Origin: Flavobacterium azizsancarii
Lineage (GTDB): Bacteria > Bacteroidota > Bacteroidia > Flavobacteriales > Flavobacteriaceae
Assembly (NCBI RefSeq): GCF_027980145.1
Contig: NZ_JAMZNK010000024.1
Coordinates: 1-64,000 of the forward strand
Reading direction: 5' to 3'
DNA: 64,000 nt
Shown here piece after piece: positions 14,201 through 64,000 of the stretch. The position numbers and the translations under genes are program-made. The notes under the pieces are model-generated. The model saw only the letters and a list, made by a program, of their open reading frames with translations. It was not told the DNA's origin and did no database searches. The first letter of the stretch is position 1, and every line of letters starts with the position of its first letter.

Positions 14201-15414
14201 CCTGAATAGTAGTTTTGATTGTTTTTGTTTACGTGAATATAACTTTTATTACTAAGATTATAAATATCAAGTCCGCCGCCTTCATTACTGATTAATAGAT
14301 TCCCCTTTTTATCTTTTATGACTGAAGTTACGTAACTTGTTTGTAATGAATTATCATTGTTTACAAGTGATTCAAGCGAATTGAATTTGTTATTGGGTTT
14401 ATCAAATACACCCAGTCCTTTATTAAAATAACCTAACCAAAGACGTTTTTCTTTGTCTTCGTATAAGGACCAAACCGAGTTCGATTTTAAGCTGAAGTCA
14501 TTGTATTTACTGTGCAGGTATTTTTGCAGTACTTGTCCTTTATAATTGACAACCAGCAATCCGTCATTTTCTGTACCACAAATGATGTAATCCTGACTGC
14601 TTTCTATAATAGATAAGATTTTGTTTTTGGTAATAGCATAATTTTCAAATTGGTAATTATCTGTTTCAGGTTTAATTTTGATCAGGCCATTTTCTGTTGT
14701 TCCCAGCCATATATATCCATATTTATCGATAACAAGATTTTCGATATCATCTAATAATGGTTCTCTTTTGAATTTGTCTTTATAAACCTGTTTGACTTTT
14801 CCGTTTAAATCAAGTTCTAAAAGACCATAATTAGTTCCTAAATAAACAATTCCCTGTTTATTTTTTACTGAAGATTTTATTAATAAATCAAATTTCTTAA
14901 GCACCTTTGATTGTACTAAACTAGCTTGTAATGTCTTTATATTAAGTCTGAATAATCCAAAACCATAGGTGCCAAGGATTAAATTGCCGTTATTATCCTG
15001 AATAATTGTTTTTACGGTAATGGGTTCGTCGTAGCCTTTTGTAATGACATCCTCGATATTGATTTTAGTAAAATTGTCTAAATCCCTGTTGTACAGGCAT
15101 AACCCATCGTCAGTACCAATCCATAAATTATTATCAGCATCAAGAAAGGTGGCATAAATAAAGTTGCTGTTTAGCGAACCGGGCTTTTTATTGTACTCGT
15201 ACCCAAAATAATTTACGCCATCATACCGATATAAACCCGTGCCGTTTGTGCCTATCCAAATAAAACCGTTTTTATCCTGAATAATCGAAGTTATGGCGCG
15301 TTTTGAAGTAGTTTCCTGTATGCTTCTAAATTGGTAATTATCAAATTTACCTTGAGATAAAAGGCAATTTATGAATACAAAATAGCATGCAAGAATATAT
15401 TTGATATTTTTCAT
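11261..15414 (-). pseudogene. Hybrid two-component system regulator (HTCS) of the polysaccharide locus, frameshifted
   Basis: If read through, this is a ~1384-residue one-protein sensor-regulator. In order: a signal peptide (start MKNIKYIL at 15414, preferred to the 13-codon longer frame); about 14 two-component propeller repeats of the form IWIGTxxxGL; a Y_Y_Y domain (NYSKKNQYAYYLEGFEKDW); one membrane segment (TIWAYLLYTSILVFLIIYF); HisKA with NISHEFRTPL; HATPase; a receiver (TILIVEDNPELRNY, PDLIITDVIMPVMDG, LSKPFE); and an AraC-type DNA-binding tail. The periplasmic propeller would bind an oligosaccharide and turn on susC and the enzymes. One A is missing from an A-run (T5 at 12514-12518 on the + strand) inside the HATPase N-box. 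This splits the gene into 12445-15414 and a C-terminal piece starting no earlier than the ATG at 12184. It could be a real mutation, phase variation or a sequencing slip. Confidence 0.88.
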
Positions 15415-15645
15415 TTCATAGTAGTATTGATCAACTTCATTCCGGAGATTCAATTTGCAAATTAACTTTTATTTTAAGTATATATAAACAATATTAATAA
15501 AACTAAATAGAAAATTTACTTTTTATGCAAATTTGATTCTATTTCCAAAAAAATATGAGCATGATTAATAATTTTGAAATGATTAATCGTACTCAGGTTA
15601 TAAGGTTGTTTTAAAAAGTATACTAAACTGCTGTGTAGTTGTTTT

Positions 15646-16018
15646 AACACATAGAAACATAGCTTTTGTTTGCTTAAAAAAAGGCGTTTTACTTTACATT
15701 AATTCACATAGGTATGTGTCAATGCCATTAAGTTAAGGAATCAGTAAATAGACAGAGAAGTAACTACAAAGTTTGTCATCTCGACGCAGGAGAGATCACA
15801 CTAGTATTTCCGTTCAGCTATTCGCCAATCTTTGCTGAGTTTCTTATGTGATCTCTCCTTCGTCGAGATGACAAGATTGCGGATTCTGAAAGAGGTAATC
15901 CGCATTAAAAAATTTCTTAACTTAATGACGTTGCCCGATGCTTCAGGACTATGTGAAAGAAACTTGTTTCTTTTTGGGATCACTCTTTTTCTATAAAAAT
16001 CTATGTTTCTATGTGTTT
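15646..16018. repeat. Nested (three-shell) palindromic element
   Basis: Three inverted-repeat pairs are stacked around one centre. The outer arms are 15646-15667 / 15996-16018 (ACACATAGAAACATAG). The middle arms are 15720-15740 / 15913-15933 (ATTAAGTTAAG core). The inner arms are 15773-15800 / 15847-15874 (TTGTCATCTCGACG..GGAGAGATCACA). A small extra hairpin lies at 15878-15905. No gene is credible inside. The inner arms resemble the GTCATxTCGACGxAGGAGA-type repeats common in flavobacterial genomes. The element fills the gap between the HTCS and GH3 genes. Confidence 0.8.
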
Positions 16019-48366: not shown

Positions 48367-48419
48367 AATTTTTAATTTAAATGTTTAGTATTTTTTAAAA
48401 ATATCCATAAAAGAGATAA

Positions 48420-49024
48420 TTAGTAATGGAAGCATAGCCATTGCGGTACAGGCCAATGTATCGAAAGAAGCCGATGTGACCAGGTTGTTTAAAGAAACCG
48501 TGAAGTCTTTCGACACGCTCGATATTTTAGTAAATAACGCGCTATCTCAAGGATACTCACCGAGTGAACTCATTTCAATAGAAAAATTTCATCTGGCTTT
48601 TAATGTAAATGTGCTGGGGCCAATTCTGACTATCCAGACATCTCTGAAACTTTTTGGTGATAAGGGTGGAAATATCATCAATATCAGTTTGGGTGCAAGT
48701 AAGTATCCGCTGCAAAATGCCTCTTTGTACTCTTAAAGTAAAGCTGCACTGGATGCCTTCACAATTGTTTTATCTAAGGAGTTGGGTGTTAAAAACGTTC
48801 GTATCAATTCTATTTTGCCGGGAGCTACGGAAACAGAGGATGTGGCCAGTTCGGGTGTTATCGTTGGCAGTGATTATGAAAAGATGTTTGTCGAAAAAAT
48901 ACCACTTGGCCGCAGAGGACAGCCTGCATATATTGCGAAAACCGTAGTATTTCTGGCTTCCGATGACGCTGCGTGGATCACAGGAGAGCAAATTTCCGTT
49001 TCCCGCGGTATCTATGGTTTTTAA
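48420..49024 (+). pseudogene. SDR oxidoreductase, truncated and with an in-frame stop
   Basis: The frame starts without an initiation codon (SIAIAVQANVSKEADVTRLF), so the cofactor-binding end is lost. NNA and the segment YS-stop-SKAALDAFTIVLSKEL follow. The TAA at 48735-48737 falls inside the catalytic YxASK motif. The C-terminal half continues to GEQISVSRGIYGF. It is a 3-ketoacyl reductase-like SDR that is no longer functional. Confidence 0.85.
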
Positions 49025-49999: not shown

Positions 50000-50506
50000 A
50001 TGAAAAATTTAATTACTCCAGCAAATTTATGCCTTTTAGGGATCTTGTTTACCTCTTCTGTTTTTGCTCAGGCTACAGCTACCGCTACAGCTTCGGCCAC
50101 AATAGTCACACCAATAAGTATTACTAATGCTTCTGATATGAATTTTGGAAACATAGCTACAGATGGAACCGTTGGTACAGTTGTTTTAGCTCCGGATAAT
50201 AGCAGGACTATTACAGGGGGGGTAACTTTGCCTGCAGCTTCAGGTACAGTAACTGCAGCAGCTTTTACGGTTTCTGGTTCTGATTCGTATACCTATGCCA
50301 TTACTTTGCCATCATCAGTAATTATTGCAAGTGGTACTGACCAAATGACTGTTGATAATTTTACCAGTACACCGGCAACAATAGGAACATTAAGTTCTGG
50401 TTCAGAGACTATAACTATTGGTGCAACCTTAAATCTGGTGGCTTCACAAGCTGAGGGATCGTATACTTCTGCAGCTCCTTTCGCAGTTACTGTTAATTAC
50501 AATTAA
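50000..50506 (+). CDS. DUF4402 pilin-like surface subunit (first copy)
   Basis: This is a 168-residue secreted beta-rich protein. The signal peptide ends VFAQ. The mature N-terminus ATATATASATIVTPISIT alternates small and polar residues, as in the donor strand of fimbrial subunits. The DUF4402 body follows: MNFGNIATDGTVGTVVL, a threonine/alanine-rich centre, and the end SYTSAAPFAVTVNYN. The family resembles the spore-coat-U-type pilins of archaic chaperone-usher systems. It is the first gene of the five-gene operon, ahead of the chaperone by 84 bases. Confidence 0.85.
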   Translation: MKNLITPANLCLLGILFTSSVFAQATATATASATIVTPISITNASDMNFGNIATDGTVGTVVLAPDNSRTITGGVTLPAASGTVTAAAFTVSGSDSYTYAITLPSSVIIASGTDQMTVDNFTSTPATIGTLSSGSETITIGATLNLVASQAEGSYTSAAPFAVTVNYN

Positions 50507-50590
50507 TAAATACATTATTAGAATTAAAAAAAAACTGTATTTAAATCTAACAGTTACAACTTTAGATTATTAACACTTTATCCTCGTATT

Positions 50591-51451
50591 ATGAATAATA
50601 CCCTCTTTATGAAAGTTGGGGTTACTCTTCTTGTACTATCATTTATTTTTACAGCGGGGCAATTAGTTGCCCCATATGATAGTGCAGGTCAGGGTGATCT
50701 TATGATAATGCCACGCAGGGTAATTCTTGATGCAAACAAAAGAACACAAGAATTGACCGTTGCCAATACAGGATCTGACAGTACAAAATATCTCATTTCT
50801 GTTATACATTACAGAATGCTTGAAAATGGTGCTTTTGAGCAGATTGCTCAACCGGATTCGGCGCAGCATTTTGCAGATAAGAATTTTAGATTTTTTCCAC
50901 GTACTGTTACACTTGCCCCCAATGAATCGCAAACAATTAAAATTCAGGCAATAAATACAAATGAAATGCAGCCAGGTGAATATAGGTCGCATCTTTATTT
51001 CAGGGCAGTTACAAAAAATCTGCCTGCAGAGAAAGAAGCTTTCAAGCCACCAAAATCGATGTCTGTACAACTTGTACCCACATTTGGTATTGCTATTCCT
51101 GTTATTATTAGAAGCGGTGCTTTAACTTTAAGTGTTAAGCTTGAAAAACCGATGTTTTCAATAAGTACAGCCGGGATACCTCAATTGAGTATGTTATTTA
51201 AGAGAACTGGTAATATCTCTGTCTACGGAGATATAAAAATAGAACACGTTTCGGTAACTGGAAGAGCTACACAGGTTGGTATTGCAAAAGGTTTTGCGAT
51301 TTACACTCCTAATTCTGTACGTAATTTTACCCTTAATTTAGACAAGAATTCAACGGTGGATTATCGTAAAGGAAAACTCAATATTATATATACTACTTTA
51401 TCTGAAACAAAACCAATAGTAATCACTTCTTCACAAGTTGATCTCCTTTAG
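50591..51451 (+). CDS. PapD-type periplasmic fimbrial chaperone
   Basis: This 286-residue protein has a signal peptide and the two-domain PapD layout. The first Ig-like domain (residues ~35-155) carries MIMPRRVILDANKRTQELTV (the G1-type edge with the conserved basic residue), FRFFPRTVTLAPNESQTIKI and GEYRSHLYFRA. FGIAIPVIIR matches the IPVIVR strand of archaic (CsuC-like) chaperones. A second, less conserved domain follows from about residue 165. It would hold subunits in the periplasm by donor-strand complementation. It precedes the giant adhesin by 52 bases. Confidence 0.8.
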   Translation: MNNTLFMKVGVTLLVLSFIFTAGQLVAPYDSAGQGDLMIMPRRVILDANKRTQELTVANTGSDSTKYLISVIHYRMLENGAFEQIAQPDSAQHFADKNFRFFPRTVTLAPNESQTIKIQAINTNEMQPGEYRSHLYFRAVTKNLPAEKEAFKPPKSMSVQLVPTFGIAIPVIIRSGALTLSVKLEKPMFSISTAGIPQLSMLFKRTGNISVYGDIKIEHVSVTGRATQVGIAKGFAIYTPNSVRNFTLNLDKNSTVDYRKGKLNIIYTTLSETKPIVITSSQVDLL

Positions 51452-51503
51452 TTCGAAATAGCTTTCAAACGAATCAATCTTTGCTAATTTAGCCCTTCAG
51501 CAC

Positions 51504-54500
51504 ATGAAAACAAAAATTATTTTTGCTTTATCGTGTAGATGTATGCTTGTCATTTTTTTATTACTCTCTGTTAATACAAAGCTTTTTAGTCAATCAATCA
51601 CTAATTATGCATTTGTTGGTACTACAGCGGCGGGTTTTACACCAATTACTGGCGGAAATACAACAACATGGACAGGGTCTACAGATGATGCAGTATCTGC
51701 ACTTATCCCAATAGGGTTTGACTTTTGGTATATGGGTATACGATATACCACTATTGGAGCAACTACTAATGGATGGCTGACTTTGGGAACTGTTGCAACT
51801 GATTTTGTTTATAACAATAATTTATCTGCTTCGGGATCACCCAGACCGGTGATTGCCCCTTTGTGGGACGATCTTGATATTGTTTCTACGGCAAATGTTA
51901 CCTATAGAACAGCAGGAGCAGTGGGTAATAGAGTTTTTACAATACAATATCTTAATACAGAATGGAATTATTTAGCCTTAGGCGCGGTATGCTCGTTTCA
52001 GGTAAATTTTTATGAAACTACTGGAAAAATTGAATTTGTTTATCGTTCTGATGCTTTTGCAGTAAACGCTCCTTCTGCCTCTATTGGGATAACTACCGCA
52101 GCTACGGGTTCGGGAAATTTTTTATCTGTAAATAATGCAGGTACCAGTGTAAGTTCTACTACTGTTGCAACTGTTACCACCAAACGGGTAACCGGCAGAA
52201 CATACGGATTTACCTCGCCAATACCTATTACCCCTGGAAATCTTAGTTTCTCTGCAATAACGCTCTCTTCGATGACACTCAACTGGAACGACCTCTCTAC
52301 AAACGAGAGAGGCTTTGTTATTTATCGTTCTACAGATGGAGTTAACTATTCTTTTATAAGTCAGACTGCGGCCGGAGCGACCTCTTCACTTCAAACAGGG
52401 CTGACTGCAGCAACAACTTACTATTGGAAAGTATATGCCATTACGGAAGGAGCAATGAGCAGCGCTCTTAATGGAACTCAGGCAACTACCTGTAACGGTC
52501 CTGTAATATCTCAACTACCAGTAACAAATTTAATCTCCTATTATAAATTTGAAGGAAATGCAGCAGATGCTACCGGTAACAATTCCGGCACTTTGCAGGG
52601 AGGCACACCTACACCGTCTGTTGATCGGTTCAATAATGCAGGAAAAGCTTATGCTTTTAATGGAACGACTAATTATATCTCTACTACAAATTTATATGTA
52701 AATCCGGCTTCTGTAAGTGTCTCTTCCTGGTTTAAAACTACCTCTGCTATTGGTGGAGCGTTAATTGGATTTTCGAGCCTTCAAACCGGTGCAGGAGGTA
52801 CCAGAGACCGATTTGTTTATATGACTGGTACAGGAGTATTATATTTTGGTGTAGCACCGGGCGCAGTAAAAAAATATATCAATACCACTACTGCTTACAA
52901 CGATGGGAACTGGCATATGGTTACCGCTACCCTTGGAGGGGGGGGTATGAAGTTATATATAGATGGTGTACTTTCTGCAAGTGATTTAACGGTAACAGCT
53001 GCTGAAACTACTACCGGATATTGGCGATTAGGATATAGTGATATTTCTACATGGCCCAATGAATCTTCAAGTTATTTCTTTCAGGGAACCTTGGATGATA
53101 TGGTGGTATACCACCGTGAATTATCTGCCTCAGAGGTAAGTGTACTGTACAATTCGCCAGATGGTGCGGGAAGTAATTCTCCGGTTTGTGCCGGAGCCAA
53201 TCTTAACCTTACTGCTTCTTCTATATCAGGAGCTAGTTATTCATGGACAGGTCCTAATGGTTTTACTTCTTTGCTGCAAAATCCAAGTCTTACTTATTCA
53301 GCAGCATACGCAGGTACCTACACAGTACAGGTAAACGTAGCGGGATGTGCTGTTACTACAACGGCCTATACAAATGTTGTATCTACTACCTCAAGTGGAC
53401 AATGGACCGGAAATGTGAGTAACGATTGGGCTAATGCCGCTAACTGGTGTAGCGGAACCTTACCTACAGCTGCTACAGATGTGGTAATTACAGCTGGTGC
53501 AGCCAGAATGCCAAACATTAGTACCAGTGTAAATAGCCGAAGTCTTACCATAAATAATGGAGCAAATTTAACATTGGCAGTTTCAGGTACCTTAAATATT
53601 GCTGGCAGCTTAATAAACAATGGCACTTTTACCAATACAGGAACTGTAAATTTTAACGGAACAACTGGTCAGCAGACTTTTTCAGGCCTTACTTCATTTT
53701 TTAATCTAACACTCAGTAATAGCAGCGGATTGTTATTGCCCTTAGGTATTACGATTAATAATGACCTAATAATTGCTGCGGGTACGCTAAATGCAAATAA
53801 TTTCAATATTAGTATAGCCGGGAACTGGACAAATAATACATCAGGTACAGCTTTTACAGCGGGTACAGGTACAGTTAGCTTTAATAGTACAACAGCCAAA
53901 GTCATTGGAGGAACTTTTTCAACCACTTTCAATAACCTCATTATAGCAAATGTTGGAAACACTGTAAGTCTTGCTGTCAATGCCAGTATTACCGGAAATC
54001 TTTGGGTAAATACGGGGACTTTTGATTTGGGAGCCTTTACGGCAAACAGAGCTACAGCTGGCGGTACACTTACCCTGGCCAATAATGCAACACTAAAAAT
54101 AGGAGGTACTAATACTTATCCTTCAAATTATACGACTAATACTCTGGTTACGGCCAGTACAGTTGAATATTCAGGTACTAACCAAATAGTTGCCAATCAG
54201 GTTTATGGTAACTTGCGATTAAGCAGCTCTGGCGGTTTAGCAGTAAAAACTTTCCCCGTGACAGCCTTAACCATAATTGGTAATTTGACCAGTGCGATAG
54301 GTGCCGGAACTTCGGTAATCTTTACGGCAGGTTCGGCCATTACAATAAATGGAAACACTGTAATAGGAGCTTCTACGACCTTTAATGGTGGCAGTTTTAT
54401 TCATAATGTAGGAGGGAACTGGATCAATAACGGTACATTTAATGGTAACACAGGTACGGTAATTTTTACAGGTTCAGGCACTACAGTAAGCGGACCGGGG

Positions 54501-57500
54501 ACTCAAAATTTCAATAGTCTTACGGTGGCCGCATCTTTGGTTAGTTTTTCAGCAGAAGGGCTTACTTTATCAGGAAATTTAGCCACAACCGGATCAGGAT
54601 CATTTATTCAGGCATCTGGCGGAACTTTGACGATGACCGGAACAGGTGTTACTATTAGCGGAGTTTCAATCTCTGTCGATAACCTTGCTATTAGTGGATC
54701 AGTGACAACAACCTCATCTATTATCTTAACGGGTAATTTAGCAGTGAGTGGAAGTTTTACTGCCAGTACGGGAACTATTATCATGAGCGGAACTTCTAAA
54801 TCCATATCGGGGTCAGGGACTAAAACTTTTTATATCCTTTCTCTTACCGGTACAGTTACTACTGCTGTAAATTTTAGCATTTCTTCAGTTTTACTTGTCT
54901 ATGGAAGTTTAACGGCCTCAGCAGGAACAGTAACTTTTACAGGAACGTCTAGTTTGAGCGGAATTGCTAATTTGTTTAATGTAACAATCAATGGAACTTC
55001 CTTTCAGCTATCTGCAAATGCAAATCTGGGTATTGCCGGGGCACTTACGGTTACAGCAGGTACACTTAATGTAAGTGCAACGCCCAACACCATAAATTTT
55101 AATGGCAGTGGGGCACAAAGTATCAATGCAATTACCTATAATAATTTAGTAACGAGTAATGCGGGTACTAAAACAGCAGCCGGGGCAATAACAGTAAATA
55201 ATGATATAACAATAGGATTGGGTACCACGTTTATAGCTGGTACTTTTACACATTCTATTTATAACAATTGGTACAATAACGGCATTTTTACTGCCGGAAC
55301 TAGTACAGTACAGTTTCTTGGCAGTCAGAATTCAGTAATTAGTGGAGCCACTACCTTTAATATTGTAACAGTTAATAATACCAGTTCGGCTATAACGCTT
55401 ACTTTGCTGAGCAATATTTCGGTAGCTACGATTAATATGACTAGTGGTACTGTGCATACAGGAACCAATACATTGATTATAACAACGACAAGAACAGGCA
55501 ATGGTATTATATTGGGAACGATAACCCGAAATCATGCCTTTTCATCCGGAACGTCTTATGCTTTTGAAGGACCTAACAACCTCATTACTTTTACTCTTGC
55601 ATCAGCTATTAATAGTGTAACAATAACTGCCATAAGTGCCCCTGTTAGCGATTTTCCATTTAATGGATCAATAAACCGTACTTATACTGTTACTATTCCT
55701 TCTGGAACATATGATAATGCAACACTTCGACTTCATTATGAAGACAATGAACTTAACGGTAGTAACGAAAGTACCATGGCTTTGTGGCATTATAATGGAG
55801 CTTCGTGGGGATATAGTGGTAAAACATTCAATAATACGACAAGTAATTATGTGGAGCAGACATTGCTATTGAATATCACCAACCGTTGGACTATCTCTGA
55901 TAATTCAAATGTGGTACAGTGGAATGGAAGTGTCAGTACAGACTGGAACACTGCAGCTAATTGGACAGTGACCCAAGGCTCAGCCTCAGCACCTCCTGCG
56001 GCTACTGATATAGTAAATTTGGGTACTGCAACTTTTACGAACCAGCCTACTATAAGCACTGCGGTAACGGTCAAAAATATAAATTTTGGTAGCCAGAAAT
56101 CCGTAACCCTTTCAATGGCAGCAGGAGGATCGCTCGTTTCATCTAACATGAATGGAATATGGAGTACCAATGCTACACATACGCTAAATGTAAATGCACA
56201 AACCATTAGCGTTAATGGAGACCTGGCATTGAGTGATGGTACCTCCGGCCATGCTATTAATTTAAATATTGATTCTGGAACACTAAACATTATTGGAGCA
56301 CTAACCGAAAATGGCAATGCCAATATTACCTTTACAGGGGCAGGAAATCTGAACATTGGAGGTGATTTTAATTATGTAAATGGCATTTTTACACCTGGAT
56401 CCGGCACAGTTACCTACAATGGAAGTTCCAATCAGAATGTGGGTATTGTAAATTATAATAACCTGATGATTAATAAAACGGTTGCAAATGCAATTGCTGT
56501 TAGTGCTTTAACCATTGCAGGTGATCTGAATATTACGGCGGGTGAATTTGATAGTAATGCCGCCAGTGTTATTGCCGGAAATGTAAATATTGCTTCCGGT
56601 ACTATTTTTCAGAATAACAGTACTGTAAGTGTTGGAGGTAACTGGAACAACAATGGCTCTTTTGCATCAAACAATTCCGGAACCAGCGTCATTTTTAATG
56701 GAACGGGGACACAAACAATATCAACAACCTCCTTTAATAATCTTGTTTTTAATAAACCTGTAGGTACTCTTGCCACATTAACAGGTAATGTAACGATCAA
56801 CGGTAACCTTAACGGGACTTCAGGAACCCTTGACATTCAATCATATTATTTCAATAGAATTACACAGGGTGGTACTGCCACATTAAATGATGATGCTACC
56901 TTAATTATTGGAGCAGACAATGCGCCAAACAATTTTTCAAACTATATTTTAAGTACCGGAAGCAGTGTTGTTTTTAATGGAATAGGGACACAACATTTAC
57001 TATTGCCAGGGGTTGTTTATGGAAATATAATTTTCAGAAATTCGGGAACAAAAATATTATATACGCCAATTACCGTCAAAAATAATTTAACAATAGAGAG
57101 CACCGCTATTTTTAATGCCGGTGCCAATACGATTACTCTGAATGGGAATTGGTTCAATAATGGGACATTTGTACCTGCAGCAAGTACGCTATTGCTTACA
57201 GGCGCGACAAAAACCATAACAGGTGATACTACATTCAATGGGCTAACTGTTACAGGAAGTTACACCATCTTAAATAATGTCACCTTTAATGGATTACTAA
57301 ATATAACCAGCTCGGGATCGCTCAGCGGCGGCGCAGGTATTAGTACTGTTGTTAATGCCGACTTAATCAACAGTGGTACATTGTATACCTTAGGTACCAC
57401 AACTTTTACCGGAACTATTCTACAGACCCTTAGTCTTATTAATGCAGTGACAACAGTGGCTATAACAGTTAATTTTAATGGTTCTGTTTCTCCCGTATTA

Positions 57501-60500
57501 AACTCTACCTCAGCTCCACAATTTGGCTATCTGAATATCAATAATACAGCAGGTGTTAATGCGAGTGTTGGCTGGACTATTGCTTATGCCCTTACGATAG
57601 GGAGCGGTGCATCATTTAATGCAGGCATATCAACTCATAATTTGCTGGGCACTCTTACCAATAATGGCATAATAACAAGTGCAGGTACTTTTAATTTTAT
57701 TCCTTCCTCTGCAGTGATGCTTAATATGGGAACTAATTTTTCAAGTACAGGAACTGTGGTTTTTGGCGGCACGGGAGCTATAACACTTGCCGGGAATCCC
57801 GTGTCATTACAAAACGTGCTCATTTCAAATACAAATCCGGCAGGCATTACTTCTGTTTCTAATCTCACAATTAAAAACAATTTTACCATTAATAACGGAT
57901 CGGTATTTAATGCAGGAATTTATAATTATTTACTTGGGGGGAACCTATTAAATAATGGTACTTTAAATAGTGGAACTTCTATTTTTACTTTAAACGGAAG
58001 TGCTGCTCAGGACTTGTACTGTATTTCTCCTTTATATGGTCTTATCATAAACAATAGCAGCGGAATTGTTACGATGTCCACAAATATAACGGTTAACAAT
58101 ACCCTGAGTTTTACAACAGGGAAAATTAAAACAGGTAATTATGTAGTTATTCAACCGGCCGCAGGTTCAGTTTTAGGAGCAGCCCAAAATACAGGCTGGA
58201 TCTATGGCAGCTTGCAGAAAAATACAGGAACCGGAGTAATTACCAAAACTTTCGAAATAGGAAATTCGACTAACTACCTTCCTGTTTCTGTGGCTTTTGC
58301 CAATATTAGTACTTCCGGAGATTTGACAGTGTCTACTATTGAAGGCGATCAGCCCAGCATAAGCAATTCACTGATCAATCCTGATAAAAGCGTAAACAGG
58401 TATTGGACAATAAATAACAATGGAATTATCTTTAGTACTGCTAATGTTATTTTTAATTACCTAGCAGCAGATCTGGATGTGGGAGCCGTTACAAATGCTT
58501 TTGTTTTAGGAGAATACAATAGTGGTTCCTGGAATTATCCTATGGTTACAGCCTTAACAGCTACAAGTCTTACAGCTGGTGGAATTACCAATTTTGCAGA
58601 TTTCCAAATTGGGCAATTAACGATTTCTATTAAGACCTGGGACGGTGGTGCCGGAACGATTAATTGGGGAGATGCAGCCAACTGGAATGTTGATGGTGTT
58701 CCTACAGTGAATGACAATGTGCAATTAACCGGTGCCTATATTATTAACATTAATGTTCCAGCCATAACTAAGAGTCTCTTACTAAGTGATCCGGATCTGG
58801 TTTTAAGTACTATTGGTGTAAATACACTTTCGATTTCGGGAGATCTGACACTGGCCTCAGGAACATTTAACATGGCTGGAGCATTTCCATCAATAACAGG
58901 CCTTGTTGATGTATCGGCAGGAACTGTGGGCTTTACCGGATTGGGGTCACAAACCATACCGGCATATAATTATTATAATCTGGTAAGCAGTTCAACTGGC
59001 ACCAGAGTATTTGCATCAACGGGTATAATTGGGATTACCAATACATTTACTCCAGGGGTGAACAGTTATACGGTTGCGGGAAGTACTGTCAGTTATAATG
59101 GTAACGGAGCTCAGACAATAGCGGCGACTGCCTATAATAATCTTACACTGGATAATGCGGGTATAAAAACCTTTGCAGCAGGTGTTACCCGTATTACCGG
59201 CAGCCTTATCAATGCAGGTACAATTACCCCGGATGCATTATCCAATGCGGGTACTATTAGTTATAATGGTACTTCTGACCAAACCATTGCAGATATGGTT
59301 TATTACAACCTTGACGCTTCAAATCCATCAGGTATTGTAACGCTGCATGATGTAACTGTCAATAAAGTTTTTAGTGTAAGTCTTGGGGCTGTTCATATAG
59401 GAAGTACAAATGATGAGCATAAAATTAATGTTTATGACGATATTATTATTGCCAGCGGAGCAACTTTAACCATATCTCCTTCTTCAGATGCTACACATTC
59501 GATCAATATTGCCGGAGATATAATCAATAATGGGGTAATGGATATGACTGCTGATTCAAATAGTCTGGCTACTGTGAGTTTTATAAGAGATGGAAATCAA
59601 ACCATATCAGGATCAGGCATTAGTGATTTCCATCAAATCATAGTAAATCAAGGTTATAACAATGCCAATATACTTGATGTAACGACTTCCGGATTTGTTG
59701 TTCCAATCGGTTTTTTGACTTTAAGTAATGGAACATTTAAACTCGATAATACAAGTTTGGATATAACTCCATTTGCAGCAGATATTGTCAGTGACCATTA
59801 TTTAATTCCTTCAAGCGCCGGTTTATGGGTAAATGCAGGAACAGTTAATTCATCTTCTATGAATTGGACTGTTGCAGGATCCGTACAAGTAACGGGAGGA
59901 ACCCTGAATATGGGAAATGCGACAGACAATGTAGTGATTCCTAAAAATCAGGCACAGTTTTCAGTTTCAGCAGGAACATTAAATTTGGCTTCGTCAATTA
60001 GTAATCCTGGCGCAACATGGAATTTTAATATGCAAGGAGGAATTATGAATGTAAATACATTTGGAAGTACACTAAGTAGTATTGTTCCTTTTAATATGGA
60101 TGTTGTCACGGATGCTTTTAATGTATCAGGAGGAACAATCGTTATTCAAAATTCAGGAGGAACTGCAGGGCAGAATCTGGGGTATCAAAACCTGTCTGCA
60201 GCTGGTACGGGATTTACCGGAGGAATGCTTCAAATGGGAAATTCTGCTACTGCAGGAACTCAGATAATGGGTATTAATACCACTAGGCCGCTTTTTAATT
60301 TACAAGTGAGTAATGCAGGTGTTACAGTTCCTTTGGTAGGTAATGATTTAACAGTTAAAAATAATGTTACCATTACTGCAGGTACATTGGATATAAATGA
60401 CAGGCTTATAGCCATAGGAGGAAACATCACTAGCAGTGGAAATTTTATTGTTAATGAGGGAACTGTTGAAATGAACGGAACTAATCCACAAACAATCGCT

Positions 60501-62042
60501 GCATCCGCTTTTACAGGAAATCTGATCAGAAACTTAACCATTGCCAACCCGGCAGGTGTCGGGCTGGCAGGCCCATTAAACCTGACAGAAATATTACTTG
60601 TAAACACGGGCACTTTAAGTTCTGCAGGCAATCTTACGCTGATTTCAACAGTGGATAAGACAGCGCTAATTGACGGAAGCGGTCAAGGGGCAGTCTCAGG
60701 AAATGTTACCATGCAGCGTTATCTGGTTGCAGGATTTGGCTATAAATATTTTAGCTCACCTTTTCAGAATGTTACAGTAAACAGTTTTGCATCAACAGTA
60801 GATTTAAATGCAGGTTTCCCTAATTTCTATAATTACATTGAAAACAAGCTAAGCAGCGGATTTACTTCATATACCAATCCTTCAAATCCATTGTACCCAA
60901 TGCAGGGCTATGCCGCAGATTTTGGATCTGCTACAGTACAGAAAACGGTAATTATGACCGGACTTGTAAATAACGGTAGTCTTTCAACTACGTTATACAA
61001 CAACAATCAACCCTATACCAAAGGATTTAACCTGGTTGGAAACCCTTATCCTTCTCCTGTCAATTGGGATTCGCCAACAGGCTGGAACAAGACAAACATA
61101 GACAATGCTATTTATTTCTTTAACTCCGGAGCAGTAAGCCAGTATACAGGGGCATACAGCTCTTATATTAATGGTGTTTCCAGCGATGGACTTACAGTTC
61201 CTATTATTGCTTCTATGCAGGGATTTTTTATACATGTTAGTGATGGTGCATATCCGGTAGCAGGAACACTGGCAATAAATAATACTGCAAGAACAGACGA
61301 TCTTTCACCTGTTTTTCATAAATCAACGATGCGCACAGCTAATTCTGATTCTGATAGAATTCTGATTAGAATCAGTGCTAATTTTTCAGATCATACCCAG
61401 TCAGCCGATCCATTGGTTGTTTATAGGGCTAATGAAGCTAGTTCTAATTTTGACAAGAGTTATGATGCTATAAAACTGATGAATATAGATGATCAGCTGC
61501 CCAATTTATACTCCATAGCAGCCGATAATTCAAAATTAGTAATCAATGGACTTTCCACAATAGATGGGGCAACAGTAATTCCTCTTGGAATAAAAACCGA
61601 GCGAGATGGTACAATAAGTTTTAATCTTCGGGATATTGAAAATTTGCCTGTACATCTTAACCTCTATTTAAGAGATACTCAAACGGGTATCAGTAAGGAT
61701 TTGCAAAAGGATCCGGTCTACAGTGTAAATTTAAAAAAGGGAATTATAGAAAATCGTTTCTTTTTGTTTTTCAAGGCTGTAGATGGTGTTATTGAAAATA
61801 ACGACAACATTTTTATGGCCTACGGGTCAGGTGTCGATATGTTTATTAAAATTAAGCTTGTAGATGAGCAGCCTGGTAAATTGCTTATTCATAATATTCT
61901 GGGTCAGGAAATATCAAGTACTCCAATAAGTGGAAACGGTGAATATAACCTGGGGCATCTAACATCAAATTTAGTGTACTTTGTTAGTTTTATTACTTCG
62001 GGTAGTAAATATACCGTTAAAATAATCACTGCTGAGCAATAA
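51504..62042 (+). CDS. Giant 3512-residue secreted repeat protein (adhesin-like), LamG-containing
   Basis: The signal peptide covers ~30 residues. An N-terminal domain (FDFWYMGIRYTTIGATTNGW) is followed by FN3 (~240-330), a LamG/concanavalin domain (~344-552, ISYYKFEGNAADATGNN to QGTLDDMVVYHRELS), and an Ig-like/PKD-like unit (~560-629). Then come about 2400 residues of beta-solenoid-like repeats (INNGTFTNTG, FNNLxxxNxxG, TINGNLxxxxG) in three blocks, each opened by a WxGxxxxDWxxAANW motif (about 53404, 55918 and 58636). The C-terminal ~60 residues (LVDEQPGKLLIHNILGQE, NLVYFVSFITSGSKYTVKI) look like a type IX secretion sorting domain. It is probably a long surface stalk or adhesin exported by T9SS and made with the chaperone-usher-like genes around it. 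Confidence 0.82.
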   Translation: MKTKIIFALSCRCMLVIFLLLSVNTKLFSQSITNYAFVGTTAAGFTPITGGNTTTWTGSTDDAVSALIPIGFDFWYMGIRYTTIGATTNGWLTLGTVATDFVYNNNLSASGSPRPVIAPLWDDLDIVSTANVTYRTAGAVGNRVFTIQYLNTEWNYLALGAVCSFQVNFYETTGKIEFVYRSDAFAVNAPSASIGITTAATGSGNFLSVNNAGTSVSSTTVATVTTKRVTGRTYGFTSPIPITPGNLSFSAITLSSMTLNWNDLSTNERGFVIYRSTDGVNYSFISQTAAGATSSLQTGLTAATTYYWKVYAITEGAMSSALNGTQATTCNGPVISQLPVTNLISYYKFEGNAADATGNNSGTLQGGTPTPSVDRFNNAGKAYAFNGTTNYISTTNLYVNPASVSVSSWFKTTSAIGGALIGFSSLQTGAGGTRDRFVYMTGTGVLYFGVAPGAVKKYINTTTAYNDGNWHMVTATLGGGGMKLYIDGVLSASDLTVTAAETTTGYWRLGYSDISTWPNESSSYFFQGTLDDMVVYHRELSASEVSVLYNSPDGAGSNSPVCAGANLNLTASSISGASYSWTGPNGFTSLLQNPSLTYSAAYAGTYTVQVNVAGCAVTTTAYTNVVSTTSSGQWTGNVSNDWANAANWCSGTLPTAATDVVITAGAARMPNISTSVNSRSLTINNGANLTLAVSGTLNIAGSLINNGTFTNTGTVNFNGTTGQQTFSGLTSFFNLTLSNSSGLLLPLGITINNDLIIAAGTLNANNFNISIAGNWTNNTSGTAFTAGTGTVSFNSTTAKVIGGTFSTTFNNLIIANVGNTVSLAVNASITGNLWVNTGTFDLGAFTANRATAGGTLTLANNATLKIGGTNTYPSNYTTNTLVTASTVEYSGTNQIVANQVYGNLRLSSSGGLAVKTFPVTALTIIGNLTSAIGAGTSVIFTAGSAITINGNTVIGASTTFNGGSFIHNVGGNWINNGTFNGNTGTVIFTGSGTTVSGPGTQNFNSLTVAASLVSFSAEGLTLSGNLATTGSGSFIQASGGTLTMTGTGVTISGVSISVDNLAISGSVTTTSSIILTGNLAVSGSFTASTGTIIMSGTSKSISGSGTKTFYILSLTGTVTTAVNFSISSVLLVYGSLTASAGTVTFTGTSSLSGIANLFNVTINGTSFQLSANANLGIAGALTVTAGTLNVSATPNTINFNGSGAQSINAITYNNLVTSNAGTKTAAGAITVNNDITIGLGTTFIAGTFTHSIYNNWYNNGIFTAGTSTVQFLGSQNSVISGATTFNIVTVNNTSSAITLTLLSNISVATINMTSGTVHTGTNTLIITTTRTGNGIILGTITRNHAFSSGTSYAFEGPNNLITFTLASAINSVTITAISAPVSDFPFNGSINRTYTVTIPSGTYDNATLRLHYEDNELNGSNESTMALWHYNGASWGYSGKTFNNTTSNYVEQTLLLNITNRWTISDNSNVVQWNGSVSTDWNTAANWTVTQGSASAPPAATDIVNLGTATFTNQPTISTAVTVKNINFGSQKSVTLSMAAGGSLVSSNMNGIWSTNATHTLNVNAQTISVNGDLALSDGTSGHAINLNIDSGTLNIIGALTENGNANITFTGAGNLNIGGDFNYVNGIFTPGSGTVTYNGSSNQNVGIVNYNNLMINKTVANAIAVSALTIAGDLNITAGEFDSNAASVIAGNVNIASGTIFQNNSTVSVGGNWNNNGSFASNNSGTSVIFNGTGTQTISTTSFNNLVFNKPVGTLATLTGNVTINGNLNGTSGTLDIQSYYFNRITQGGTATLNDDATLIIGADNAPNNFSNYILSTGSSVVFNGIGTQHLLLPGVVYGNIIFRNSGTKILYTPITVKNNLTIESTAIFNAGANTITLNGNWFNNGTFVPAASTLLLTGATKTITGDTTFNGLTVTGSYTILNNVTFNGLLNITSSGSLSGGAGISTVVNADLINSGTLYTLGTTTFTGTILQTLSLINAVTTVAITVNFNGSVSPVLNSTSAPQFGYLNINNTAGVNASVGWTIAYALTIGSGASFNAGISTHNLLGTLTNNGIITSAGTFNFIPSSAVMLNMGTNFSSTGTVVFGGTGAITLAGNPVSLQNVLISNTNPAGITSVSNLTIKNNFTINNGSVFNAGIYNYLLGGNLLNNGTLNSGTSIFTLNGSAAQDLYCISPLYGLIINNSSGIVTMSTNITVNNTLSFTTGKIKTGNYVVIQPAAGSVLGAAQNTGWIYGSLQKNTGTGVITKTFEIGNSTNYLPVSVAFANISTSGDLTVSTIEGDQPSISNSLINPDKSVNRYWTINNNGIIFSTANVIFNYLAADLDVGAVTNAFVLGEYNSGSWNYPMVTALTATSLTAGGITNFADFQIGQLTISIKTWDGGAGTINWGDAANWNVDGVPTVNDNVQLTGAYIININVPAITKSLLLSDPDLVLSTIGVNTLSISGDLTLASGTFNMAGAFPSITGLVDVSAGTVGFTGLGSQTIPAYNYYNLVSSSTGTRVFASTGIIGITNTFTPGVNSYTVAGSTVSYNGNGAQTIAATAYNNLTLDNAGIKTFAAGVTRITGSLINAGTITPDALSNAGTISYNGTSDQTIADMVYYNLDASNPSGIVTLHDVTVNKVFSVSLGAVHIGSTNDEHKINVYDDIIIASGATLTISPSSDATHSINIAGDIINNGVMDMTADSNSLATVSFIRDGNQTISGSGISDFHQIIVNQGYNNANILDVTTSGFVVPIGFLTLSNGTFKLDNTSLDITPFAADIVSDHYLIPSSAGLWVNAGTVNSSSMNWTVAGSVQVTGGTLNMGNATDNVVIPKNQAQFSVSAGTLNLASSISNPGATWNFNMQGGIMNVNTFGSTLSSIVPFNMDVVTDAFNVSGGTIVIQNSGGTAGQNLGYQNLSAAGTGFTGGMLQMGNSATAGTQIMGINTTRPLFNLQVSNAGVTVPLVGNDLTVKNNVTITAGTLDINDRLIAIGGNITSSGNFIVNEGTVEMNGTNPQTIAASAFTGNLIRNLTIANPAGVGLAGPLNLTEILLVNTGTLSSAGNLTLISTVDKTALIDGSGQGAVSGNVTMQRYLVAGFGYKYFSSPFQNVTVNSFASTVDLNAGFPNFYNYIENKLSSGFTSYTNPSNPLYPMQGYAADFGSATVQKTVIMTGLVNNGSLSTTLYNNNQPYTKGFNLVGNPYPSPVNWDSPTGWNKTNIDNAIYFFNSGAVSQYTGAYSSYINGVSSDGLTVPIIASMQGFFIHVSDGAYPVAGTLAINNTARTDDLSPVFHKSTMRTANSDSDRILIRISANFSDHTQSADPLVVYRANEASSNFDKSYDAIKLMNIDDQLPNLYSIAADNSKLVINGLSTIDGATVIPLGIKTERDGTISFNLRDIENLPVHLNLYLRDTQTGISKDLQKDPVYSVNLKKGIIENRFFLFFKAVDGVIENNDNIFMAYGSGVDMFIKIKLVDEQPGKLLIHNILGQEISSTPISGNGEYNLGHLTSNLVYFVSFITSGSKYTVKIITAEQ

Positions 62043-62089
62043 ATAAAAATAAATGATGATAACCGGAATGATTATCAAAATGAAGTAAG

Positions 62090-62623
62090 ATGAAAAATAA
62101 AATAAAATACTTTTTCAATAGTAAAATATCCATAGTGATTGTTTTTTCTATTGCCTCTTTTTTAGCCACTTTTTCAGCCCGTGCCCAAGGTCCGGAGAAC
62201 CCTCCCAAACCTGTAGTAATATATGTAAATCCGGCACAGGGATTGAATTTTGGAGCTTTTTATCAGGGAGGTACAGGAGGTTCAGTGATGGTGTATCCAA
62301 ACGGATCAAGAACAACAACAGGCAGTGTAATACAAACCAGTCAGGGGGTTTCCTTTTCTCCTGCAATATTTGAAGTAGAGGCCGAACCTGGCACATTGGT
62401 TACTATTGTAAACGGACCCGATGTTACTCTTACCGGAAGTAACGGAGGTACAATAGTTCTAAGTATAGGTAGTGCCGATCCACCAAGCCCGTTTATTGCG
62501 ACAGCCACTTCTCCTTCAAGAACCCTTATTAGGATAGGTGGAACATTAACCATAGGTAATCCATTAGTCAATCCTCCGGGAAATTATAACGGTACCTTTT
62601 CTGTAACATTTATTCAACCCTAA
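62090..62623 (+). CDS. DUF4402-family protein (second copy)
   Basis: This 177-residue secreted DUF4402 protein has a signal peptide ending SARAQ and a body GLNFGAFYQGGTGGSVMVYP to YNGTFSVTFIQP. Unlike the first copy, its mature N-terminus is proline-rich (GPENPPKPVVIYVNPAQ) and not an alternating donor strand, so it may be a tip or base subunit. It sits 47 bases after the giant protein and 3 bases before the usher gene. Confidence 0.82.
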   Translation: MKNKIKYFFNSKISIVIVFSIASFLATFSARAQGPENPPKPVVIYVNPAQGLNFGAFYQGGTGGSVMVYPNGSRTTTGSVIQTSQGVSFSPAIFEVEAEPGTLVTIVNGPDVTLTGSNGGTIVLSIGSADPPSPFIATATSPSRTLIRIGGTLTIGNPLVNPPGNYNGTFSVTFIQP

Positions 62624-62626
62624 CCC

Positions 62627-64000
62627 ATGCACAAAGTCAACGTCAGTTTACATACATGCTTTTGGGCTAAGATTACCATTGTGTGGATCATAATGGCAGG
62701 ATCGGGTATGACATGTAAAGCCCAGACGATAACTGATTATGATGAAATTTCAGTATCATTCAATATTCAGCGCATCGGTACAGCAGAAATGTCGACTCTT
62801 ATCTATAATCAAACGGCGTACATACCTGTGGTTGATCTCTTTGATTTTTTAAAGATCAATATAATAGTAAGGGATCTGGATGCTCTAAGCGGGACATTCA
62901 TCCACCCAAATTCAGCATTTTTATTTGATTTGCCCAATAATCGTATTGTTTATCAGGGAAAGAATTTTGATCTAAAACCCAATAGTCTTATTAGAACTAC
63001 AACGAATCTTTATCTGCGTTCTGATTATTTTTATGAGATTTTCGGGTTGAATTGCCTGTTTAATTTTCGTAGTCTTTCGGTAGTTATTAGCACAGATTTA
63101 GAGCTGCCTATTATGCGTGAAATGAGATTGGAACAGATGAGAAATAACCTAAACAAATTGCAGGGTGTTTTTAAAACAGATGAATTTGTGGGACGCAAAA
63201 ATCCATCTTTTTATTTCGGGACAGCAGATTATTCATTTGTTACTTCGGCTGGAAATAAAGAAACTCCCACAGACACCAGAGCAAGTCTTGGTGTTGGCGG
63301 TATAGTAGCTGGCGGCGAAACAAATGTAATCCTGAATTATCAGAGTAATATTGCTTTTTCTAATCGCCAGCAGTATTACTTGTGGCGCTATGTAGATAAT
63401 GACAAAACTTTTGCCAGACAGTTTTTAGCCGGAAAAATAAGAGGACAGTCTATTTCGTCTATTTATGCCCCTATAGTTGGTGTGCAGGTTACTAACGCTC
63501 CTACAACTTACCGACGCTCGTTTGGGACCTATACCATAAATAATTATACAGAGCCAAATTGGACTGTAGAATTGTACGTTAACGGTGTGCTTATTAATTA
63601 CATTAAAGCTGATGCGGCTGGTTTTTATACTTTTAAAGTACCTCTTGTCTATGGAAATACTGCTGTAAAGTTACGATTCTACGGTCCGTTTGGAGAAGAA
63701 CGCTCCACCGAACAAAATATAAATATTCCCTTTAATTTTTTACCCAAAGGCGAATTCGAATATACAGCCAGTGCAGGTATTGTGGAAGATGGACAAGATA
63801 CGCGGTTTGCAAGATTTAGTAGCAATTACGGATTTAACAAAAATATTACTGTAGGAGCCGGATTTGAATACTTGTCTTCTATAACTTCGGGAACAGAAAT
63901 TCCTTATGTAAATACTTCTTTTCGTTTGTTACCAAATTTACTCATCTCAGGAGAGTATGATTTTAATGTGAGGTCCAAGGCAGTATTGAGTTATAATTTA
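62627..64000 (+). CDS. Fimbrial-usher-like outer membrane protein (3' end beyond the window)
   Basis: The gene starts ATG at 62627, 3 bases after the DUF4402 stop, and is open to the window edge (458 codons). A signal peptide ends CKAQ. Residues ~30-180 are a soluble domain (TAYIPVVDLFDFLKINIIV, SAFLFDLPNNRIVYQGKNF). From ~190 on there are outer-membrane beta strands (FYFGTADYSFVTSAG, TNVILNYQSNIAFSN). The segment WTVELYVNGVLINYIKADAA, GFYTFKVPLVYG and EFEYTASAG parallels the usher plug and the start of its barrel (VxVYQNG, PGPFxI, YxVTAG). The whole usher cannot be checked because the end is missing. Confidence 0.7.
   Translation, partial: MHKVNVSLHTCFWAKITIVWIIMAGSGMTCKAQTITDYDEISVSFNIQRIGTAEMSTLIYNQTAYIPVVDLFDFLKINIIVRDLDALSGTFIHPNSAFLFDLPNNRIVYQGKNFDLKPNSLIRTTTNLYLRSDYFYEIFGLNCLFNFRSLSVVISTDLELPIMREMRLEQMRNNLNKLQGVFKTDEFVGRKNPSFYFGTADYSFVTSAGNKETPTDTRASLGVGGIVAGGETNVILNYQSNIAFSNRQQYYLWRYVDNDKTFARQFLAGKIRGQSISSIYAPIVGVQVTNAPTTYRRSFGTYTINNYTEPNWTVELYVNGVLINYIKADAAGFYTFKVPLVYGNTAVKLRFYGPFGEERSTEQNINIPFNFLPKGEFEYTASAGIVEDGQDTRFARFSSNYGFNKNITVGAGFEYLSSITSGTEIPYVNTSFRLLPNLLISGEYDFNVRSKAVLSYNL

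Follow-up and report, generated by a model that had tools for sequence, protein, structure and literature searches.

The DNA analysed here (the window) is the 64,000-nucleotide stretch at positions 1 to 64,000 of contig NZ_JAMZNK010000024.1 of Flavobacterium azizsancarii (assembly GCF_027980145.1), and its last part carries five closely spaced genes encoding two proteins with the DUF4402 domain (D1 and D2), a PapD-like chaperone, a giant adhesin and a candidate usher. We consider that this locus encodes a divergent chaperone-usher pilus of Bacteroidota, in which D1 would form the shaft and D2 the tip, accompanied by an adhesin exported by the type IX secretion system (T9SS), and we give this reading a probability of about 0.75. 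Chaperone-usher pathways are known mainly from Proteobacteria, while the type IX system is an export machine specific to Bacteroidota. An earlier interpretation made from the DNA letters (the sequence-only reading) had described five co-directional genes, and the list of open reading frames (ORFs) confirms their positions, with intergenic gaps of 84, 52, 47 and 3 bp between D1, the chaperone, the giant gene, D2 and the usher. The edge of the window at 64000 cuts the usher gene; the contig continues and the full gene, which encodes 858 amino acids (aa), ends at 65203. The features of the locus are:

50000..50506, + strand: D1, DUF4402 protein of 168 aa, proposed shaft pilin (ORF; PF14352, E 1.8e-29)
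50069..50110, + strand: D1 residues 24-37, the mature N-terminal extension with alternating small and hydrophobic residues, proposed donor strand (model, VIA alignment)
50591..51451, + strand: PapD-like periplasmic chaperone, 286 aa (ORF; PF00345)
51504..62042, + strand: giant surface adhesin, 3512 aa (ORF; Pfam)
52659..53141, + strand: LamG / ConA-like lectin domain of the adhesin, residues 386-546 (PF13385, Laminin_G_3, E 4.8e-20)
61842..62027, + strand: T9SS type A sorting domain of the adhesin (TIGR04183, 24.9 bits against a cut-off of 23, E 1.5e-5, in a scan of the last 130 aa; absent from the listing of the whole-protein scan)
62090..62623, + strand: D2, DUF4402 protein of 177 aa, proposed tip (non-donating) subunit (PF14352, E 1.2e-19)
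62186..62212, + strand: D2 residues 33-41, proline-rich mature N-terminus at the position of the donor-like strand of D1 (motif counts)
62627..64000, + strand, gene end at contig position 65203: usher, 858 aa, of which the first 458 aa lie in the window (ORF; model of a relative)
63518..63724, + strand: plug of the usher, six strands, model residues 298-366, after barrel strand 6 (DSSP of the model; local predicted local distance difference test score, pLDDT, mostly 58-75)

The barrel protein at the end of the locus is supported as an usher by its predicted fold, despite the miss of the usher profile PF00577. The AlphaFold2 (AF2) model was made for the usher of Flavobacterium sp. SLB02 (L053), which is 97% identical to that of the window, from an alignment of 64 relatives, and its mean pLDDT is 83.5. 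It contains a barrel of 24 strands (residues 195-647, counted from DSSP). The six-strand insert after strand 6 was assigned as the plug from the order of strands in the printed DSSP list and from the structural alignment, not from inspection of coordinates; as far as these tell, the plug inside the barrel foreseen by the sequence-only reading is present. PapC is described as having a barrel of 24 strands, its plug lying between the sixth and the seventh (PMC4356140). When the L053 model was searched with Foldseek the first 18 rows were all FimD or PapC, with E from 4.9e-27 (FimD) to 3.1e-12, and the row after these ushers was SdrD (E 7.5e-11). VIA returned 15 ushers with Z from 23.3 to 19.3, the best being the FimD pore 3ohn (root-mean-square deviation 4.1 over 356 residues), and then the iron receptor Fiu (Z 18.0) as the first non-usher row; these matches barely cover the N-terminal domain of the usher. 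Thus the usher call of the sequence-only reading stands as far as the predicted fold is concerned and fails at the level of the Pfam profile, where the full-length protein gave no PapC-type match, the very outcome which that reading had set against itself. The C-terminus contains SdrD_B, carboxypeptidase-regulatory and similar domains according to Pfam, and ushers of several relatives (e.g. L012 and L030) possess C-terminal extensions; SPOR and TPR_2 domains were each found in 6 of 26 usher relatives. Such extensions could tie the usher to peptidoglycan or to partners.

The chaperone was called PapD-type by the sequence-only reading, and this is supported by a marginal score: PF00345 (PapD_N), the first domain, on which the call rests, reaches 23.9 bits, barely above its cut-off of 23. 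The same domain is matched at E<=0.1 in 28 of 33 relatives of the chaperone. In the family alignment a GEYRSH motif is invariant and an FG...IPVIIR-like segment is conserved, the latter probably corresponding to donor strand G1. When the single sequence was compared with chains of the Protein Data Bank (PDB), no chaperone was among the rows.

D1 and D2 both carry the DUF4402 domain, as had been proposed, and are homologous to each other (hhalign E 1e-21); D1 has an additional sub-threshold Pfam match to DUF3316. The AF2 model of D1 has a pLDDT of 90.7, with residues 19-38 in no strand. Its predicted fold resembles that of a pilin: chaperone-usher pilins fill the first 33 rows of the Foldseek search and 48 of the 50 rows displayed by VIA, and we accept the fold because this list of matches is so uniform. 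In the VIA alignment residue 38 of D1 is placed on residue 15 of CsuA/B (7zl4) and the end of D1 on the ends of the pilins, which suggests that mature residues 24-37 of D1 would take the place of the donor strand. The D1 profile gave weak rows against the PDB, with Caf1 (E 2 and 3.5) behind streptococcal Epf, and the four top rows of the D2 profile were CfaE, also weak (E 0.19-0.35), followed by antibody and toxin rows. NCBIfam gave no match for D1, D2 or the part of the usher within the window. On the whole, the DUF4402 proteins are supported as pilin-like subunits.

The two subunits differ at the mature N-terminus, and this difference recurs in relatives. We examined the best 80 (the named loci) of 296 stretches encoding usher relatives, two of which, L092 and L094, come from one contig. 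Their 139 DUF4402-like ORFs and the two of the window make 141 rows, which were classed by position alone; 16 rows with a cut N-terminus were left out and a Bacteroidales group of 11 rows was tallied separately. An alternating hydrophobic N-terminus was present in 39 of the 50 readable proteins not directly upstream of the usher and in 1 of the 64 directly upstream, while PP or PxP was present in 58 of these 64 and in 1 of the other 50; in the class not directly upstream, two rows (L058 and L073) have the look of D2 proteins missed by the distance rule. The usher-adjacent row L124 resembles the D1 type. The median distance from the mature start to a conserved Phe was 27.5 in proteins not directly upstream of the usher and 20 in those directly upstream. 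A subunit with the proline-rich end of D2 would accept a strand and donate none, which would place it at the tip and hence D1 in the shaft, an assignment that we somewhat favour.

The giant protein combines a lectin-like front with a T9SS sorting domain at its C-terminus, and the T9SS-sorted adhesin of the sequence-only reading is supported. Apart from the LamG domain, Pfam recognises fn3 (E 8.5e-6) and, below the cut-off, a PKD-like stretch; the next 2500 aa or so appear repetitive when read by eye. The sorting domain itself scores above its cut-off in the window, and among 61 C-termini of such adhesins TIGR04183 is matched in all 61 and PF18962 in 52, both at E<=0.1 (this alignment was assembled from the named loci, 15 of the 80 having no candidate gene and 5 of the 65 candidates being dropped by eye as other proteins). 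The home genome encodes the T9SS protein SprA (TIGR04189, 2786.9 bits). Judged from these domains, the adhesin is very probably exported by the T9SS. The fronts of six other adhesins that were scanned vary, with a SUEL lectin domain in two and weak PA14-, Ig- or PKD-like matches, or nothing, in the others.

The locus is the only chaperone-usher pilus locus found in the home genome (5.84 Mb, 167 contigs), in which the single usher match (E<=1e-5), the single chaperone match (E<=0.001) and both DUF4402 genes are located here; the best PF00577 match of the genome (E 0.625) lies elsewhere. Usher relatives were found in 19 of 398 genomes of the genus, 2 of 196 of an order sample and 94 of 395 of a phylum sample, the home genome being counted in each; of the 94, six (G591, G614, G629, G639, G715 and G928) match in the C-terminal region only and others are partial. 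DUF4402 was present in 48 of the 395 phylum genomes, all 48 of which also have an usher relative (Fisher p 9e-36, uncorrected for kinship), and, at E<=1e-5, in none of the 301 genomes lacking such a relative. The named loci come from Flavobacterium, Pedobacter, Chitinophaga, Salegentibacter, Gillisia, Salinimicrobium, Bacteroidales metagenome-assembled genomes and others. Co-occurrence of the genes, which the sequence-only reading had expected, was observed: a sorting-domain gene lies directly upstream of the pair formed by a DUF4402 gene (D) and the usher gene in 60 of the 80, the full order D-chaperone-adhesin-D-usher is in view in 29, and in 26 the adhesin leaves the fetched stretch before any chaperone becomes visible. 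The sorting-domain profile used for this was built from 60 of these C-termini and that of the window, its score therefore not being independent; TIGR04183 provides the independent check. The upstream position is commoner than chance would give: downstream of ushers the profile matched 5 of 427 ORFs (>=180 aa), and some of these five are themselves adhesins, belonging to that pilus locus or to one close by. In Chitinophaga filiformis DSM 527 (L092/L094) the five-gene set occurs twice in tandem.

On a smaller scale, among 17 Flavobacterium loci (partial matches in G241, G338 and G350 omitted) 11 have a sorting-domain gene as an immediate neighbour or one gene further, on either the upstream or the downstream side; two of these 11 show the order of the window, and 2 further loci (L147, L148) stop inside a large gene. 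As the sorting-domain gene stays near despite these upstream and downstream shifts, the partnership appears to outlive changes of order. Among 20 loci of other families and classes, chosen from the 94 phylum genomes, a sorting-domain gene was in the printed neighbourhood of only six (L153, L159, L162, L166, L167 and L169), in one case on the opposite strand and in another five genes beyond the usher; the adhesin is thus not a universal member of these loci. A distinct Bacteroidales clade of 12 loci (L072, L076, L078, L079, L081, L085, L088, L090, L097, L100, L107 and L108) is marked by another type of DUF4402-like gene, by ushers that are in most cases longer (895 to 1064 aa) and by the absence of an adjacent chaperone or adhesin. 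In a tree of 118 ushers, made by a fast method with local support only, the usher of the window groups with those of SLB02, F. pectinovorum and F. cerinum within a Pedobacter group, and two other Flavobacterium groups stand apart from it. Horizontal transfer is likely, judged from this tree.

With the classical type 1 (FimC/FimD) and P (PapD/PapC) pili the locus shares the 24-strand barrel with its plug after strand 6, a PapD-like chaperone, subunits of predicted pilin-like fold with an N-terminal extension, and the arrangement in one operon. It differs from them in an usher which is unmatched by PF00577 (in structural alignment L053 is 8-12% identical to FimD and PapC) and ends in an SdrD_B/carboxypeptidase-type domain, in subunits which are DUF4402 proteins with cysteine-free mature parts, and in that no tip adhesin with a pilin domain was recognised at the locus. 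Pseudomonas aeruginosa CupB, a system with a P-usher, offers a parallel, as its pilus operon also encodes a secreted non-pilin protein: the gene of the TpsA-like CupB5 stands between those of the chaperone CupB4 and the putative adhesin CupB6, and its product is reported to be moved, probably, by the POTRA-bearing usher CupB3 (PMC3031594). The order of chaperone, giant protein and candidate tip is the same in the window, where the giant protein has a T9SS sorting domain instead. Surface fibres and T9SS-exported adhesins are both familiar in Bacteroidota, the former as type V pili of Bacteroidia (FimA/Mfa1), the latter as SprB and RemA (PMC3796261). For another member of the phylum, Cytophaga hutchinsonii, chaperone-usher genes are reported to be absent (PMC7906972). 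In the open-access literature searched (titles and beginnings of abstracts, with subscription journals outside the search) neither a T9SS adhesin encoded with an usher nor any description of such a system was found, and no mention of DUF4402 was met. Type V pili have lipoprotein precursors and are not known to use an usher.

Several observations weigh against a pilus with a companion adhesin. The fibre itself is predicted from genes and models. PF00577 has no match in the 858-aa usher at E<=10 and reaches E<=1 in only 2 of 26 usher relatives (best E 0.01), and comparison of the usher with sequences of solved structures, as a single sequence and as a profile, put no usher among the rows. By hhalign the probabilities against ushers, chaperones and pilins of E. 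coli K-12 were 0.4-21%, and those against EcpC and EcpB of the alternative branch 5% and 0.4%, respectively. The score of the chaperone is marginal, as noted, and a PDB search with the profile of 33 chaperones had no chaperone among its matches at E<=1. The matches of D1 are modest, with a best Foldseek E of 3.5e-3, none being under 0.001, and a best VIA Z of 7.9, where a Z under 8 can reflect a merely common arrangement. The proline rule for D2 breaks down in the Bacteroidales group, in which 0 of 11 rows have PP or PxP and the alternating N-terminus is missing too. In the window adhesin PF18962 reaches 14 bits against a cut-off of 27. Finally, in 20 of the 80 named loci, 12 of them belonging to the distinct Bacteroidales clade, the place directly upstream of the D-usher pair is not taken by a sorting-domain gene, and 4 of the 17 Flavobacterium loci show no such gene nearby. 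These points are to be set beside the fold predictions and the conserved gene set, and with both considered we hold with high confidence that the locus encodes a machine of chaperone-usher type.

What such a machine builds, and what the giant protein has to do with it, can be explained in more than one way. Pilus and adhesin could be mere neighbours, co-regulated and working separately without ever touching, a possibility to which we give almost an even chance; it differs from the preferred reading, a pilus with a companion adhesin, in the last step only, and the two probabilities overlap. The adhesin domains vary among loci, with LamG in the adhesin of the window and a SUEL lectin domain in two of six others, while the pilus genes are constant, and pilus genes also occur without an adhesin, as in the four Flavobacterium loci just mentioned, both of which agree with independent function. 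Nor does the association between the D2 proline motif and the adhesin speak for contact: it looked strong in the counts from the named loci (Fisher p 2e-8) and where both states are known (60/61 versus 15/34), but allowing for ancestry, with 22 of 117 loci of unknown state set aside, there are 6 independent pairs and a median p of 1, and we rejected it as evidence. The position of the adhesin gene tells against mere neighbourhood: several families have it within the pilus set, with the chaperone gene before it and D2 after it, and where the order changes it is still close by. Alternatively the giant protein might itself be the substrate of the usher, as a huge tip adhesin, since its gene stands in the operon beside that of the chaperone and tip adhesins of other systems are encoded in such operons; NCBIfam also reports the TafC fimbrial protein on its LamG part (residues 455-557), at 30.8 bits far below the cut-off of 410. 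In tip adhesins exported by ushers the C-terminal part is a pilin domain, as in FimH and, as reported, in CsuE and CupE6; at the C-terminus of the giant protein a T9SS sorting domain was found and a pilin domain was not, which makes this explanation highly improbable.

The sequence-only reading had placed the locus in the archaic (Csu-like) branch, a label that the sequence comparison does not support and a placement that we regard as unlikely. Archaic systems are described as phylogenetically the widest, and Csu pilins are among the best VIA matches of D1 (7zl4, Z 7.3; 6fm5, Z 7.0). Classical pilins are matched about equally well, and D1 fits CsuA/B and CupE folds about as well as classical ones, while neither D1 nor D2 has a spore-coat-U match (Pfam, E<=1) and their mature parts are free of cysteines, in contrast to the archaic pilin domains, in which invariant cysteines are marked in a figure legend (PMC4654587). 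The text in which archaic pili are listed names proteobacteria, cyanobacteria and phyla such as Deinococcota, and not Bacteroidota (PMC10104325). The usher matches classical FimD and PapC, structural matches that cannot place it in a branch; we read the locus as part of a divergent, Bacteroidota-wide branch of chaperone-usher systems. It is also conceivable that the usher-like barrel and the chaperone do something else, for instance exporting single DUF4402 proteins or forming a surface coat in place of a pilus. No fibre is known, and the Bacteroidales group manages with just a DUF4402-like gene and a longer usher, without an adjacent chaperone. A donor-like strand in D1 and none in D2 are what a polymer with a tip would require, and we consider another task very unlikely.

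If the locus does encode a pilus with a companion adhesin, the chaperone would escort the DUF4402 pilins across the periplasm to the usher, which, with its 24-strand barrel, plug and extra C-terminal domains, would assemble them by donor-strand exchange. The N-terminal strand of each D1 in the shaft would fill the groove of the next subunit outwards, while D2, taking a strand and having none to give, would be the first subunit added and come to lie at the tip. The type IX system would take the giant lectin-like adhesin across the outer membrane, with the C-terminal sorting domain of the adhesin as the guide, and the adhesin would serve the same attachment function as the pilus. Because related bacteria often keep the pilus genes and the adhesin together, the two may work as one surface system. 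A more ambitious version, in which two secretion routes meet in one appendage, the adhesin docking on the D2 cap or along the usher-made fibre, seems to us rather unlikely, and that the adhesin is physically joined to the fibre at all is doubtful.

The surroundings of the operon show some further features. At 48374-49024 of the window there is an apparent pseudogene of a short-chain dehydrogenase (read by eye), without a visible start and with one in-frame stop, and the approximately 975 bp between it and D1 are AT-rich with no gene listed. A promoter scan was uninformative (16 found, 10.8 expected). Directly past the usher, beyond the window (L002:3326-3706), a 126-aa HisKA-like protein is encoded, with 22 bits against a Pfam cut-off of 26.9 and no further Pfam domain, which is possibly a regulator; ORFs of 123 aa (also HisKA-like) and 126 aa follow the ushers of Flavobacterium sp. 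SLB02 and F. pectinovorum, respectively. Further downstream, L002:12383-13922 and 15105-15912 contain transposase-like gene fragments, judged from their translations, which is consistent with a mobile neighbourhood.

From these results we can conclude that the locus is, by its sequence, real and conserved and, as far as the open literature was searched, undescribed. It places in Bacteroidota a complete machine of chaperone-usher type which is largely invisible to the standard usher profile, and DUF4402 gains a likely role as the pilin of these systems. If the adhesin were docked on the fibre, the pilus would carry, like a stalk, a cargo that it does not export itself. Cooperation between a pilus and a T9SS adhesin could be studied at this compact locus, which also provides a testable rule by which shaft and tip subunits may be told apart.

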